DNA of 10,360 nucleotides, from assembly GCA_021413595.1 (NCBI GenBank), contig JAIOQD010000039.1:1-10360 (forward strand). The letters run 5' to 3'. Positions 1 to 10,360 of the stretch are shown here, piece after piece (position 1 is the first letter of the stretch; every line of letters begins with the position of its first letter). The notes under the pieces were generated by a model, which did no database searches, was not told the DNA's origin, and saw only the letters and a list, made by a program, of their open reading frames with translations. The stretch is from Bacteroidota bacterium. Lineage in GTDB: Bacteria > Bacteroidota > Bacteroidia > 2-12-FULL-35-15. A program made the position numbers and the translations under genes.

Positions 1-2522
1 CCTTCCCCACAAGTTTTAGTTTCAGCTTCATGGCCTTTACAGCAGCTTTTAACGGGAGCTGTTCCTGCATGTTCCATACACATTGCTTTTTCATCTGATG
101 AACATTTCATTGAATCACAATAAGCTGCACATTCTTCTTTGCTCATGTTCATACATTTTTCCATGTCGCATTTCGCCCCTGCAAATTTCCCCTCAGCATC
201 ATACATACTCATGCAATATGCTTTTTCAGTAGCAGAGCATCCTTTTTCATCACACATTTTTGCACACTCTTCTTTTGTCATAGTAGCACATTTGCTCATA
301 TCACATTTGCTGTGCATACTGGTGCATGAACCATGTGTTTCCTGCTCTCCCATTGAACATTCTTTTTTCATTCCACAAGCATCACTTCCGCCTTCAGAAG
401 AAACAACAGCGATGTATGGAGCAATTACCAAAGAAACAATTGACATTAATTTGATAAGGATATTCATGGAAGGACCTGAAGTATCTTTGAATGGATCACC
501 AACAGTATCTCCTGTTACAGATGCTTTGTGTGGTTCAGATTTTTTGTAGAACATTTCACCATTGATCATTACTCCTTTTTCGAATGATTTTTTTGCATTA
601 TCCCACGCTCCACCTGCATTACTTTGGAAAATACCCATCAATACACCTGAAACAGTTACACCTGCTAATAAACCTCCTAATACTTCCGGTCCGAATATAA
701 AACCAACAATTACCGGTGTAATCAAAGCAATAGCTCCCGGCATCATCATTTCACGGATAGATGCTTTAGTTGAAATAGCAACACATTTTTCGTATTCGGG
801 TTTTGCTTTGTATTCCATAATTCCCGGGATTTCACGAAACTGTCTTCTTACTTCCTGAACCATATCCATAGCTGCTTTACCAACTGCCTGGATACATAGT
901 GCCGAGAAAATGAAAGGGATCATACCTCCAACAAATAAACCTGCTAATACAGGGGCTTTGTAAATATCAATAGCATCAATTCCGGCAATACCAACAAAGG
1001 CTGCAAACAAAGCCAAAGAAGTTAATGCTGCTGAAGCAATTGCAAATCCTTTTCCGGTAGCAGCTGTAGTATTACCTACTGCATCTAAATTATCAGTACG
1101 CTCACGAACTTCTGGAGGTAACATGCTCATTTCGGCAATACCACCTGCATTATCAGCGATAGGTCCAAAAGCATCGATCGCTAATTGCATAGCTGTTGTA
1201 GCCATCATACCTGCTGCAGCGATTGCAACACCATATAAACCTGCAAAATAATAAGATGCCATGATACCTGCTGCCAATGTAAGAATTGGGATAACAGTAG
1301 ATTTCATCCCTACCGATAAACCGCCAATAATATTAGTTGCATGTCCGGTAGATGATTGTTGAATGATGGACATTACAGGAGCTTTACCCATTGCTGTGTA
1401 ATACTCGGTAACAATACTCATTATTGCACCAACCACAGTTCCTACAACAATTGCTAAAAAAACGTTTAATCTTGAAAATGCATAACCACGTAAGCTTAAT
1501 TCTTCCGGTAACATCCACATTACTATGAAATAAGAAGCAATAACAGTAAGGATCATTGACGACCAGTTACCTAAGTTCAATGCGTTTTGTACGTTTGATT
1601 TGTCATCTTTGATGCGAACAAACCAAGTTCCAACAATAGAGAAAAGAATTCCTAAACCACATATTACCATTGGTAATAATATTGGTGACATTCCATTAAA
1701 ATTATCTACCACTGTAATTTCTTGTCCTAAGATCATAGTGGCCAAAATTGTGGCTACGTAAGAACCAAATAAATCGGCACCCATACCTGCAACGTCACCT
1801 ACGTTATCACCAACGTTATCAGCAATTGTAGCCGGGTTACGTACATCATCTTCAGGAATACCTGCTTCAACTTTACCAACTAAATCGGCTCCAACGTCAG
1901 CTGCTTTTGTATAAATACCACCACCTACTCTTGCAAATAAGGCAATAGATTCTGCACCTAAAGAGAAACCTGTTAATACTTCGATGGCTGTTTTCATGTT
2001 AATAACATCAACACCATCTTCACCAATTACATTAAATATTTTCAAGAAAACAATGAACAAACTTCCTAAACCAAGTATTGCTAAACCTGCAACACCAAGT
2101 CCCATTACGGTTCCACCTGTAAAAGAAACTTTTAAGGCTTGTTTTAAACTGGTTTTAGCAGCTTGTGTAGTACGAACGTTTGCTTTTGTAGCAACTTTCA
2201 TTCCTATGTATCCTGCTGTAGCAGAAAAAATAGCTCCAATAATAAATGCGATGGAAATGATCCAGCTGGAGTGAATTTCTTTACCATTAATTTCATGGAT
2301 TGTTCCTGAATAAGCTAATAACGCAGCTGCAAATACCACGAAAATACTAAGTACTTTCCATTCAGCTTTTAAAAATGCCATTGCTCCATCAGCAATGTAT
2401 CCTGCAAGTTCCTGCATTTTAGCATCACCCGCATCTTGTTTACTTACCCAGGCCGATTTTACAGCCATTACAATCAATCCAAGGATTCCTAATGCAGGAA
2501 CCAAATACATTATTTCATTCAT
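1..2522 (-). CDS. hppA: K+-dependent membrane-bound proton (or sodium) pumping pyrophosphatase, 3' end cut by window edge, with Cys-rich C-terminal tail
   Basis: This inner-membrane pump couples pyrophosphate hydrolysis to ion export. The frame is open from the ATG at 2522 to the left edge (840 codons, no stop). Visible family motifs are [18 protein letters not shown] (about residues 200-217), the substrate-binding [20 protein letters not shown] (about 221-240) and [18 protein letters not shown] (about 481-498). In the last, Ala rather than Lys follows GNTT, the signature of K+-dependent enzymes. The ion-selectivity glutamate is absent from both usual helix-6 places (G253 and A257 in DLFGSYVA), while helix 5 has Glu191 in [12 protein letters not shown]. 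From family knowledge this fits the Flavobacterium johnsoniae-type H+-pumping subgroup; the transported ion is inference. The core ends with a hydrophobic helix near residues 682-700. A Cys/Met-rich tail with 18 Cys follows, described separately. The start at 2522 places the usual N-terminal hydrophobic helix first; there is no Shine-Dalgarno, only an A-rich leader. A good promoter lies about 130 nt upstream. Confidence 0.96.
39..308 (-). repeat. Two tandem 45-codon cysteine-rich repeats in the tail of the pyrophosphatase
   Basis: Repeat 1 (174-308, residues 739-783) and repeat 2 (39-173, residues 784-828) are in frame with hppA. Each begins KCDMxKC and continues xxM[ST]KEECAxxCD. Both share exactly the same cysteine spacing: C-x4-C-x7-C-x3-C-x4-C-x7-C. 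Over the first 33 residues 21 are identical. Three more Cys precede them (codons at 375, 357 and 324) and three follow (42, 39 and 9). Met is also abundant, and His occurs near both ends. Six regularly spaced Cys per unit suggest metal binding or disulfide bonding; no known domain was recognised. Because this family is known to have its C-terminus outside the cytoplasm, the tail is probably periplasmic (inference). Confidence 0.9.
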
Positions 2523-2782: not shown

Positions 2783-5134
2783 TTACTCAATAGCACGTTT
2801 GTTGAACATAATATAACCAAAATGGAAGAGTACGGAGAAGGGCTTTTTTTCCTGATCGTAATAGTTTACGCTTAAGCTCAATGGACCAATAGGTGTACTC
2901 CAAACAATTGCTCCTGTAGCAATATAGTGTTGTAAAGCAAATGGACTGCTATAATCTGTTTTTAGCTGTGCAGTTTTGATAAATGACTGAACGGGTTGAA
3001 AGACATAGCCCTCAGCACGAAATTCAATGTTTTCACGGAAATTAACAACAAATTTTAAACCTCCCGCTAAATATTGATGCGCTCGATAATTTTCTAAAAA
3101 AATTGTTTTACTATCGGGCGTTGGTTGAAAAGCAGGAGCAGATAATACACTTGCAGTAAAATTATTAAAAAGAGTTTTGGTGGAATATACACCCTCGCCA
3201 AATAAACCAATTTTTAACGTCCCTCTTCTATTAAAATATCTTTCGGCTTTGGTTTTAAAAGTAACCCATTCGTGATATTTCTTAAATTTGTTTACTCCAT
3301 TGATTGATGTGGAACCAGGTGTATTTGTTTCTAATCCATTCACATATAGTAATTTAATATTAACATAACTACCTTGATTCGCATACTGTTTCCGGTTCAA
3401 TGAATTGATCTCATAATATCCCTGATAGTTGAACATATCAAAATCGGTGCGATCAGTAGTGTCGTCTTCTGTAAATTGTGTTGTTTGGTAATATTTGTCG
3501 GTGATCCGGCCACTACCGGCACCAAGAACCATTCGTCCTTTTTTACCTGTAGGGAAACCTATTTTCACATTGGCGTATTGTTCATTTTGTTTTAGGTAGG
3601 CTGGTTTAACATCTTTTAAAAATGAACTGCTACTCGAGAAATAATCCCATTTATTCCAGGTAACACTAGGTTCAACATAAATTGGTGTTCTGAAAGGGAA
3701 ATCGAAACGTGTTTGAATTTGGGCTGAATTATATAATTTACCAAAATAAACATTAGCTGTTATAGCTGCGGCAAACTGATCCAGATAATTATATTGAACC
3801 CCTAAATATCCCTGACTTATTGGACGATTAGAAAAATTACCGCCAAAATAAGTAATAATGTCCCGTTCCTTCTTAACTTTTAAATATAGATCGTAAAATC
3901 CTGACTGCGGATTAAATTTTGCTTGTGGGTATATATATTTTATTTTATTGTCGGAAGCAAGTCGGAAATATCCTTCTTTAATTTCTTCCATACTTACCTG
4001 TTTAATATTGTTACGCAACAACTTAGGTGAATATTCTGATTGTTTGGTATCTTGTTTACTATTCTGACGTAAAATTCGTCTTGCATATTCTGCTTGCTTG
4101 CTGTTTAAGCCTTCAATAAAAATATTATCAAAAACAATTTCAGGGATTTTTGCTCTAAACTTAGCACGTTTAGCTTTAAGTTCTTCAGGAGTTATTCTAT
4201 TTACAACGTGAGCTTTTATGAAATCCATTTGACGCATTGTAGCAACATAGCCACTATCAATAGTTGGTTGTGGGTCACTGAAGTCAAAAAGGCTGACATT
4301 TGTTTTAGGTTTAATAATTAGTCCGGCTTCACAGGGTACGTCAAAATTGGTTTTACCAAGTAACATACATTTGATCTGAGATACAATATTATCTTCATCC
4401 GCAGGAGGAATATTAGCAGCAACAGTACTTCCGATAATAAAATCAGGATAAAAATCCTCATACATAATGTTGGAGGGGAAATTATTATAAAATCCACCGT
4501 CATACAATAATCTTCCATCTACTGCAACAGGAGGGATGAAAAATGGGTAGGCAATTGAAGAGCGAACAGCCTGCCCTAAATCCCCTGATTTCATAATAAC
4601 AGTTTCTTTTTTATGAACGTCCGCAGCTACACAGCGAAAAGGGATAAATAAACTATCAAAATCATATTTTGCGGCAGCAGAAGGTCCTGTAGTAAATTCT
4701 AATAAACCAAAATCCAACGAAAGTGGATTCACTATGTTAGTGGGGAGCCTCAATTTAAGAGCGGAATCAAGTGATAATTTGAAACTTATCCATGATGGAT
4801 CATTGTCGTCATTTTTAAAATAATAGGCGTACTTTTCGTCAGTAGCGCCTACAGTCATACCTATATATGATTCAGTTTTTACAAAAGCTTCGATTTGAGT
4901 TGGAGAATAACCCAAAGCATACATTGAGCCAATTAATGCGCCTTGAGATGTTCCTGTGATGTAATCTACAGGAATATTATTTTCTTCAAGTGCTTTTAAA
5001 ACTCCTATATGTGCGTAACCCGCTGCACCACCACCACTAAATACAACGCCTATTTTTTGAGCAGTTGAGAATTTTGCAGTAAAAATGAGCAGAATGAATA
5101 AAATAAAGTAGTTTTTTTGTAGACTCAGCCTCAT
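2783..5134 (-). CDS. Patatin-like phospholipase with POTRA-like segment and C-terminal outer-membrane beta-barrel (type Vd/PlpD-like)
   Basis: A predicted secreted lipid acyl hydrolase joined to its own outer-membrane barrel, 783 residues. Residues 1-25 form a Sec signal peptide (basic start, hydrophobic core, STA before the mature Q). The patatin domain follows at once, about residues 27-300. It has the oxyanion loop GGGAAG (34-39), the nucleophile elbow GTSQG with Ser63, and the catalytic Asp212 in YDGGFYNNFP, so the Ser-Asp dyad is intact. Residues about 335-430 resemble a POTRA module (IFIEGLNSKQAEYARRIL). The rest is rich in alternating aromatic strands, consistent with a BamA/TamA-like 16-strand barrel. 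This architecture matches type Vd autotransporters such as PlpD and FplA and many Bacteroidota patatins; whether the enzyme reaches the cell surface or faces the periplasm is not known here. It ends 260 nt before hppA and has its own putative promoter and terminator, so it looks monocistronic. Confidence 0.92.
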   Translation of the reverse strand: MRLSLQKNYFILFILLIFTAKFSTAQKIGVVFSGGGAAGYAHIGVLKALEENNIPVDYITGTSQGALIGSMYALGYSPTQIEAFVKTESYIGMTVGATDEKYAYYFKNDDNDPSWISFKLSLDSALKLRLPTNIVNPLSLDFGLLEFTTGPSAAAKYDFDSLFIPFRCVAADVHKKETVIMKSGDLGQAVRSSIAYPFFIPPVAVDGRLLYDGGFYNNFPSNIMYEDFYPDFIIGSTVAANIPPADEDNIVSQIKCMLLGKTNFDVPCEAGLIIKPKTNVSLFDFSDPQPTIDSGYVATMRQMDFIKAHVVNRITPEELKAKRAKFRAKIPEIVFDNIFIEGLNSKQAEYARRILRQNSKQDTKQSEYSPKLLRNNIKQVSMEEIKEGYFRLASDNKIKYIYPQAKFNPQSGFYDLYLKVKKERDIITYFGGNFSNRPISQGYLGVQYNYLDQFAAAITANVYFGKLYNSAQIQTRFDFPFRTPIYVEPSVTWNKWDYFSSSSSFLKDVKPAYLKQNEQYANVKIGFPTGKKGRMVLGAGSGRITDKYYQTTQFTEDDTTDRTDFDMFNYQGYYEINSLNRKQYANQGSYVNIKLLYVNGLETNTPGSTSINGVNKFKKYHEWVTFKTKAERYFNRRGTLKIGLFGEGVYSTKTLFNNFTASVLSAPAFQPTPDSKTIFLENYRAHQYLAGGLKFVVNFRENIEFRAEGYVFQPVQSFIKTAQLKTDYSSPFALQHYIATGAIVWSTPIGPLSLSVNYYDQEKKPFSVLFHFGYIMFNKRAIE

Positions 5135-8869: not shown

Positions 8870-10360
8870 TTACCCTTCTTTATCCAGATAAGATTGTACT
8901 ATATCAATTGCATTATCGATCACATCACTTAAGGCTGTAATAAATGTGCCTGATTTGGCTAATGAAAGTGCATGTTTTAAAGCATCAACTTCTTTAGGGA
9001 TGTATTCGTAAGATTGTTTCGGATCTATTTCTTTAATACCTTCCACCAAAAGTTTAACAATATCATCAGCTTCCCTTCCACGTAAAAATTTATCTTGTCG
9101 TATAATAATATGATCGAACATTTGAGCGGAAATTCTTCCTAATTCTCTAATGTCACTATCTCTTCTATCGCCTGTACCTGTAATAATACCTATTTTATCA
9201 GGAGAGTCGATAGTAGATAAAAATTCTTTAATACCATTGAAGCCATCCGGATTGTGAGCAAAATCGATCATCACTTTAAAATCTTTAAAAGTGAAAATAT
9301 TCATTCTTCCCGGAGTTTGTGCAGCTGATGGAATAAATGTTTCGAGTGAGGTGCCAATATCTTCAATTTTAAAACCATAAACGTAAGAAGCAAGTGTTGC
9401 CGCTAATACATTATAGATCATAAAAGTTACTTTGCCACCAAAGGTTAATGGTATTAAGGTTACTTTTTCAACTCTGAATTTCCAATCGCCTTTCTTTATT
9501 GTGATGTAGCCATTTTCGTAAATAGCAGCAATTCCGCCTTTTTTGCAATGCTCAACTATTACCGGATTGTTTTCATCAACACTAAAATAAGCTATATTGC
9601 AACTTGCGTTCTTACCGATCTTTACGCAGTATTTGTTATCTGCATTAAGCACAGCATACCCATCACGTTTAACGCTTTCAACCACTACCCCTTTTACTTT
9701 GGCCATTTCGTCCAGAGTATTGATGTCGGATAAACCCATGTGATCAGCTTGTACGTTAGTCACTATTGCAATATCACATTTGCTGAAACCAAGTCCTGCT
9801 CTTAAAATGCCGCCACGTGCTGTTTCCAGAACAGCAAACTCAACGGTAGGATCTTTCAAAATAAATTCGGCACTCACTGGGCCGGTGGTATCACCTTTTG
9901 TTAACATAGAGTTTCCTACGTAAATACCATCGGAAGTGGTGAATCCTACTTTAAATCCGTTATTTTTAACAATATGAGAAATTAAACGGGTGGTAGTAGT
10001 TTTACCATTGGTTCCTGTAATGGCAATAATTGGTATTCTGCATGATTTGCCTGTTGGATAAAGCATATCAATTACAGGAGCCGCTACATTTCTTGGTAAA
10101 CCATTGGCTGGAGCTAAGTGCATCCGGAAGCCGGGAGCTGCGTTCACTTCTAATACCACAGCACCGGTATCTTCTAATGGTTCGTTAAGATTGGTTCCCA
10201 TAATATCAATACCACAAATATCCAAACCAATTATTCGTGAAATACGTTCAAAAATAAATATATTGTGTGGATGCACAATATCCGTGATGTCCGTGGAAGT
10301 TCCACCAGTACTAAGATTAGCGGTTCCCTTTAAATAACATAATTCCTTTTTTGCAAGAAT
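8870..10360 (-). CDS. cphA: Cyanophycin synthetase, C-terminal 496 residues (5' end beyond right edge)
   Basis: The enzyme makes cyanophycin (multi-L-arginyl-poly-L-aspartate), a nitrogen reserve polymer, adding Asp and then Arg with ATP in the cytoplasm. The frame is open through the right edge. The GTG at 10276 is internal: codons before it read KGTANLSTGGTSTDITDIVHP, a conserved CphA stretch. The window holds the end of the ATP-grasp domain, including EVNAAPGFRMH (10118-10150), and the entire Mur-ligase-like domain. The latter has the P-loop GTNGKTT (9995-10015), then DTTGP, ETARGGILRAGLGF, TNVQADHMG, the C-terminal AHNPDG (9242-9259) and GDRRDSD (about 9152-9172). All these match CphA, and the C-terminus is not truncated. 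Full-length CphA is about 870-900 residues, so about 57 percent is present. In non-cyanobacterial genomes cphA often neighbours a cyanophycinase gene, which would lie off the right edge (inference). A MurE-like cell-wall ligase is unlikely because of the fused ATP-grasp part. Confidence 0.93.
   Translation of the reverse strand: MLAKKELCYLKGTANLSTGGTSTDITDIVHPHNIFIFERISRIIGLDICGIDIMGTNLNEPLEDTGAVVLEVNAAPGFRMHLAPANGLPRNVAAPVIDMLYPTGKSCRIPIIAITGTNGKTTTTRLISHIVKNNGFKVGFTTSDGIYVGNSMLTKGDTTGPVSAEFILKDPTVEFAVLETARGGILRAGLGFSKCDIAIVTNVQADHMGLSDINTLDEMAKVKGVVVESVKRDGYAVLNADNKYCVKIGKNASCNIAYFSVDENNPVIVEHCKKGGIAAIYENGYITIKKGDWKFRVEKVTLIPLTFGGKVTFMIYNVLAATLASYVYGFKIEDIGTSLETFIPSAAQTPGRMNIFTFKDFKVMIDFAHNPDGFNGIKEFLSTIDSPDKIGIITGTGDRRDSDIRELGRISAQMFDHIIIRQDKFLRGREADDIVKLLVEGIKEIDPKQSYEYIPKEVDALKHALSLAKSGTFITALSDVIDNAIDIVQSYLDKEG

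Follow-up and report, generated by a model that had tools for sequence, protein, structure and literature searches.

A conserved Cys/Met-rich repeat tail fused to membrane pyrophosphatases in many Bacteroidia

The left end of a 10,360 bp stretch of Bacteroidota DNA (assembly GCA_021413595.1, contig JAIOQD010000039.1; the whole stretch analyzed here is referred to as the window) raises the question of whether a long Cys- and Met-rich tail truly belongs to the membrane pyrophosphatase (HppA) that it follows, and what such a tail might do. The minus-strand hppA ORF (coordinates 3–2522) encodes 840 residues and is open, with no stop codon inside the window. Residues 709–840 (132 aa) include 18 Cys, 14 Met, and 4 His, compared with 3 Cys in residues 1–702, and at a 1% Cys background the probability of at least 18 Cys in 132 residues is 2e-15. 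An earlier note made from the sequence had described an uninterrupted frame extending into at least 130 Cys/Met-rich residues and two 45-residue tandem repeats with the same Cys spacing, and both descriptions are borne out: the first repeat begins at residue 740 and the second exactly 45 residues later, at 785, and the two share the spacing C-x4-C-x7-C-x3-C-x4-C-x7-C, and are identical at 19 of 31 residues. By eye, each unit is itself approximately two 17-residue halves (C-D-x3-C-x4-K-x2-C); within unit 1 the halves agree at 5 of 14 aligned positions.

Window base 1 is the contig end (G000:C100 from base 1), and the hppA frame runs off there, such that the contig offers no sequence for the extension to the left that the earlier note had proposed. 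Nonetheless, the closest relative (L031), which is 96% identical across the whole protein, has a tail ending in CGEGHH-stop, and the window tail is thus short by about three residues plus the stop, and is nearly complete rather than open-ended. The ORF is divided as follows.

405..2522, minus strand: HppA core (residues 1–706), a membrane pyrophosphatase (PF03030, VrPPase 4A01 alignment, AlphaFold2 model)
3..404, minus strand: Cys/Met-rich C-terminal tail (residues 707–840), cut by the contig end about three residues short of its stop
324..377, minus strand: variable Cys-bearing linker from helix 16 to repeat 1 (Cys716, 722, and 733), pLDDT below 50 in both models
171..305, minus strand: repeat 1 (45 aa; Cys-spaced 31-aa unit at 213–305), A2 profile E 7.7e-25
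78..170, minus strand: repeat 2 (31-aa unit), A2 profile E 2.5e-11 at 69–170
9..44, minus strand: vicinal-Cys end segment (Cys827–828 and 838), a region that in many relatives holds a second Cys module (module 2) instead

The earlier note also named two ways in which the fusion could be illusory, namely a frameshift or assembly error at about position 390, or a tail that is really a distinct downstream gene. When 84,980 species genomes were searched using only the tail as query, 388 stretches were confirmed, and in the best 80 of these the tail is fused in frame to HppA in every case; 79 were identified by a script that finds the tail and an HppA signature in the same ORF, and the other (L045), whose contig begins inside the last HppA signature, was judged by eye. 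Named Flavobacterium species with the fusion include F. cauense, F. saliperosum, F. suncheonense, F. fluvii, F. croceum, and F. alvei. Recurrence of the same in-frame fusion across many genomes rules out the frameshift or assembly error, and its presence in 80 of the 80 best relatives rules out a separate downstream gene. Judged from these comparisons, the Cys/Met-rich tail is a genuine, conserved module fused to HppA.

The core itself matches its family profile over the full length. PF03030 (H_PPase) matches residues 13–700 (profile positions 1–645; 894 bits), the pump part is 44–45% identical to VrPPase in a fold search, and the AlphaFold2 pump model superimposes on VrPPase with a TM of 0.77–0.78 by query length. 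In the alignment to 4A01, Glu191 lies opposite VrPPase Ser235 (position 5.43), with Gly253 at 6.53 and Ala257 at 6.57, assignments that depend in part on a VrPPase residue numbering that we take to be correct. The window pump therefore has the arrangement of the Flavobacterium johnsoniae type, with Glu at 5.43 and none at 6.53 or 6.57. All 96 Cys-tailed cores of a 136-core set share it, L090 and L097 as judged by eye and the other 94 by script. A further 34 cores in that set have Glu5.43 but no Cys repeat; the six with Ser5.43 and Glu6.53 also lack the repeat. The F. johnsoniae H+-PPase is reported to have Glu5.43 in the excerpts of PMC10897367 and PMC6882861, and the window pump has in common with this K+-dependent type the semi-conserved Glu at 5.43 and its absence from 6.53 and 6.57, as well as the GNTTA..G motif of the K+-dependent VrPPase; the same excerpts make no mention of a Cys-rich tail. 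From the gate residues and PMC10897367 as excerpted, we infer that the Cys-tailed pumps translocate H+ rather than Na+, and the NCBIfam NF001955 name for the pump family, sodium-translocating, is probably wrong for them.

On which side of the membrane does the tail lie? The earlier note placed the C-terminus outside the cytoplasm, and this is very probable. In other HppAs an OmpA (PF00691) or YceI (PF04264) domain is joined on at this junction, and there are two triple fusions, HppA-Cys repeat-OmpA in Flavobacterium croceum (L107) and HppA-Cys repeat-YceI in L173. With OmpA and YceI domains at this junction, and two of them placed behind a Cys repeat, the tail is most likely periplasmic. The published topology agrees in the part of PMC8657866 consulted, in which the N-termini of even-numbered mPPase helices face the cytoplasm, and helix 16 thus would end outside. 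A free-standing protein built from the second Cys module (L224), which by eye has a signal peptide and lipobox, points the same way. As mPPases are homodimers, we strongly infer that there are two copies of the tail per pump. The further statement that these enzymes normally end shortly after helix 16 holds poorly in Bacteroidia, where long HppA tails are frequent.

Several of these other tails can be recognized. A motif script finds YceI-like C-termini on 16 of the 136 cores (L181, L186–L189, L192, L193, L197–L200, L205–L208, and L030), and the domain is confirmed by Pfam in both YceI tails scanned (L173 and L181). YceI is an isoprenoid-binding fold, and its presence on a PPi pump is puzzling. 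A conserved end segment resembling FEGT.AEVKAKV is found by script in 22 of 96 Cys-repeat tails, mostly in Flavobacterium (L054, L057, L063, L081, L082, and L091 among others), and also in L210, which has no Cys repeat. HppAs L184, L185, and L194 have yet another conserved C-terminal extension, which is Cys-free; that of L184, the only one of the three scanned, matches no Pfam family over the cut-off.

We compared these tail classes on a tree of 136 cores (FastTree only), made by keeping 173 of 186 rows with a core of at least 640 residues and then removing near-copies; L173 is absent from it because rows with short cores were left out. The tree loci, like those used for dN/dS below, were picked for their tails, and frequencies are not derivable from either set. 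The class script misses some degenerate units (e.g. L158, a profile match classed as OtherCys), and L107 was classed by hand. The Cys-repeat label requires 18 changes compared with a shuffled mean of 35.6 and is thus clustered, although branches that are starred force only 8 of its changes; with L107 counted in, there are 17 changes over 96 rows. The 16 YceI rows require 12 changes and the 4 OmpA rows require 4, both counted without a shuffled control, and at 7 rows, when nine YceI tails were still classed as 'other', YceI was not clustered. Close to the window on the tree are L186, which has a YceI tail, and L217, which also has a different tail. On this tree, tails are often swapped, even among near relatives, and the Cys repeat is conserved where it is present. 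Because unrelated domains replace it in some close relatives, the tail is not required for pumping in general.

These frequent changes of class would be expected if the HppA C-terminus were simply a permissive periplasmic attachment site, to which unrelated domains (Cys repeats, YceI, OmpA, and other small ones) are tethered for functions other than pumping. We regard this as unlikely, as the clustering of the Cys repeat runs counter to it, and in the genomes searched the repeat is found above noise only on HppA, a distribution that points to an association with the pump more than to freely moving cargo.

The latter observation derives from surveys with a profile of the 45-residue repeat (A2; cut-off E 0.01 for the class survey). 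Of 396 Bacteroidia genomes, 378 have HppA and 61 have the repeat, the latter spread over 20 of 198 genera. The window's own genus supplies 18 of the 61 genomes, and 32 of 36 genomes of this genus (including the window's own) have the tail; among the four that lack it, no HppA was found in three and only the front part in the fourth. The A2 matches in the class lie in ORFs of 787–906 residues, except for contig-edge pieces in G025 and G233, which on reading are HppA ends. In a draw of 392 genomes from the phylum, in which fusion was judged by ORF length and sequences were read only where they had also been fetched, the strong matches are in 17 genomes, the window's own and 16 of one genus in family f53, with ORFs of 814–897 residues. 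Genomes outside class Bacteroidia gave weak rows only, and the nine weak rows of this draw (E 0.002–0.09) are fewer than expected by chance for the number searched. The earlier note had called for a profile search for both fused and free-standing copies; those fused to HppA were found, but no free-standing repeat rises above noise in the 396 class or 392 phylum genomes. Weak matches L225 and L226 look like chance on fetching, L224 is a truly free-standing protein but one composed of module 2, and 24 pattern matches in viral contigs gave no confirmed example.

Purifying selection is evident in dN/dS values of 0.108 for the units, 0.257 for the rest of the tail, and 0.036 for the core, calculated over 34 pairs, of which 31 are distinct (three repeat the same genomes from two collections) and six join tails that differ in unit number. 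By these values selection acts on the units, but more weakly than on the pump. In these alignments the Cys-repeat tail is kept by purifying selection in many Bacteroidia.

Conservation within the units is concentrated on Cys. The profile finds units on 125 of 166 distinct tails; of the 150 unique units, all have Cys18 and Cys23, 149 have Cys31, and 148 have Cys14. Cys1 is present in each of the 146 units that reach that position, and Cys6 in 138 of 149, where it is replaced by Met (7), Val (3), or Leu (1). All six Cys are kept in 134 of 146 complete units; Cys6 alone is missing in nine of the 146, and is Met in six of those nine. Among 110 complete, non-redundant tails, selected by a pattern in which positions 18 and 23 must be Cys, 65 have an odd total number of Cys. 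Mean composition is 12.0% Cys and 8.0% Met in the 96 Cys-repeat tails, compared with 0.5% and 2.3% in 16 YceI tails. Of the 96, 93 have Cys residues next to each other, and seven have at least four His within their last 20 residues.

Metal binding and disulfide bonding had both been proposed for the tail. The first is a sensible reading, and the odd Cys totals, the occasional Met at a repeat Cys position, and the failure to find DsbB or VKOR in the genus favor metal (or free thiols) over full disulfides; DsbB was found in none of six genus genomes (6 of 14 control genomes were positive), and VKOR in 24 of 281 class genomes but in none of the 11 genus genomes listed. We therefore lean, at slightly less than an even chance, toward a thiol/thioether metal-binding module for Cu(I) or Zn. 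Each unit would form a small helical motif, as predicted, in which the near-invariant Cys14, 18, 23, and 31 of the 31-residue unit, together with Met side chains, could bind soft or borderline metals as thiolates and thioethers, with Cu(I), Zn, or similar metals as candidates. Accessory segments rich in CC, His, and CX3C may add metal capacity, and on the periplasmic face of the pump, which helps to maintain the proton-motive force, the tail could buffer or sense metal. There are counterpoints. Retention of all six Cys is also expected of a disulfide-knotted unit, VKOR is rare class-wide anyway and other oxidants are possible, and no metal-binding structural relative was found in PDB sequence, repeat-profile, or fold searches. 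When the two ORFs nearest to hppA on either side were clustered, a reading by eye of the 14 largest clusters showed no metal-handling gene. The gene directly upstream of hppA, also by eye, encodes a soluble pyrophosphatase in 16 loci and is patatin-like in 16 others.

Alternatively, the units may be disulfide-stapled helical mini-domains, in which structural disulfides hold each unit together and possibly also join one tail of the dimer to the other, to make a stable extracytoplasmic spacer, clamp, or binding surface. The strict Cys retention fits such a fold, as do, by eye, short predicted helices with N-cap-like T/S-x-E-E motifs and a scarcity of large hydrophobic residues, such that something must hold the fold together. 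Cys6 alone is nonetheless dispensable in some complete units, nearly all tails contain adjacent Cys, and the missing DsbB and VKOR argue against it, although VKOR is present in three Cys-tailed genomes (G040, G128, and G205). The odd totals are a further difficulty, but they could balance across the dimer, and the C-termini of the dimeric plant enzyme are close together according to a title cited in PMC5150537 as excerpted. We consider this reading possible but doubtful.

Structure prediction is in keeping with small helical units. An AlphaFold2 model of the tail alone (35 rows) has a mean pLDDT of 63 and pTM of 0.37, with helices over both units at block pLDDT of 73–89 (84–89 over most of unit 1 and 73–85 in unit 2) and low confidence elsewhere; in the whole-pump model the values for the units fall to 63–76. 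A fold search with the tail model (mean pLDDT 63) finds no solved structure at E 0.001, and the tail has no Pfam match over the cut-off and no NCBIfam or PDB relative, including in a search of its profile against PDB sequences. The repeat profile's only PDB match is pheromone ER-10, at E 0.096.

Cys-rich metal-binding proteins of other kinds offer partial parallels. The metallothioneins SmtA and MymT are cytosolic and free-standing, in contrast to the regular 45-residue repeat of the window tail, which is fused to a pump, and only 1 of 42 units gives a weak match to Pfam Metallothio_6 (E 0.2). They are similar to the tail in being short and very Cys-rich (PMC7558416, as excerpted). The copper storage protein Csp1, described in the same source, is likewise helical, Cys-rich, and of periplasmic type, with Met/His ligands at one end, but it is a free-standing four-helix bundle that has a Tat signal and forms a tetramer, and the tail matches the Csp bundle in neither sequence nor fold. 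A closer architectural parallel is the Paucibacter mPPase with a C-terminal OmpA-like domain (PMC11210485, PeerJ 2024), which similarly has an extra domain after the last membrane helix; it differs in being predicted to be K+-insensitive and in the domain it carries, and the word 'cysteine' is absent from its text. Searches of open-licence PMC papers turned up no account of a membrane pyrophosphatase with a Cys-rich tail, and within the literature reached this is a known pump with an undescribed, new accessory domain. Work on membrane pyrophosphatases usually treats them as bare 16-helix pumps, and many Bacteroidia add C-terminal periplasmic modules to them.

The module could couple an energy pump to the metal or redox state of the cell envelope. 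Should it bind metal or sense thiol state, a PPi-driven proton pump would have a periplasmic input, and structural and transport work on Flavobacterium-type enzymes would need to allow for it. One elaboration, a long shot, is that the paired Cys/Met tails of the HppA dimer act as a periplasmic metal/thiol-redox sensor that tunes PPi-driven proton pumping. If so, envelope metal stress would be linked to membrane energization, and one pump would take its periplasmic input from alternative tails, whether OmpA, YceI, or Cys. A related account has the tail toggling between reduced and oxidized (or metal-bound) states, so altering pumping. A selected Cys-rich domain at the exit side of an ion pump is what it would predict, but some near relatives swap the tail (L186 and L217), and the other tail types would need a different role; we consider it improbable. 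As the module is small and repeated, its function is directly testable.

Module 2 (C-x3-C-x3-C-x5-C-x3-C-x3-C), which follows the Cys repeat in many relatives, is present in 28 of 396 genomes at E 0.01. Beyond the HppA ORF it occurs in these genomes only in G041, and in G025 and G087 downstream of an in-frame TGA. The G041 protein is free-standing and Cys-rich, with 163 residues, three tandem copies of module 2, and, by eye, a signal peptide and lipobox; its coordinates are as follows.

L224:919-1422 (G041:C10) and L256:5734-6225: free-standing module 2 protein of G041

No plasmid match to the L224 protein was found. A Sco-like protein (by eye) is encoded about 4.7 kb upstream of it.

The in-frame TGA lies between the repeat and module 2 in two lineages, L035/L113 (G025) and L166/L247 (G087), and in L166 it takes the place of the Cys with which module 2 opens in relatives. 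Selenocysteine is ruled out at these positions, as SelA and SelB are each over the cut-off in none of seven genomes (controls over cut-off: SelA 1 of 14, SelB 2 of 14), and we read the split tails as natural truncations between modules.

Elsewhere in the window, an Rfam scan gave no match. A patatin-like phospholipase gene (2783–5134, minus strand; PF01734 at residues 30–220) lies upstream of hppA in the same direction, and at 8870–10360, also on the minus strand, is a Mur-ligase-type protein resembling cyanophycin synthetase by eye, which is cut by the window end.
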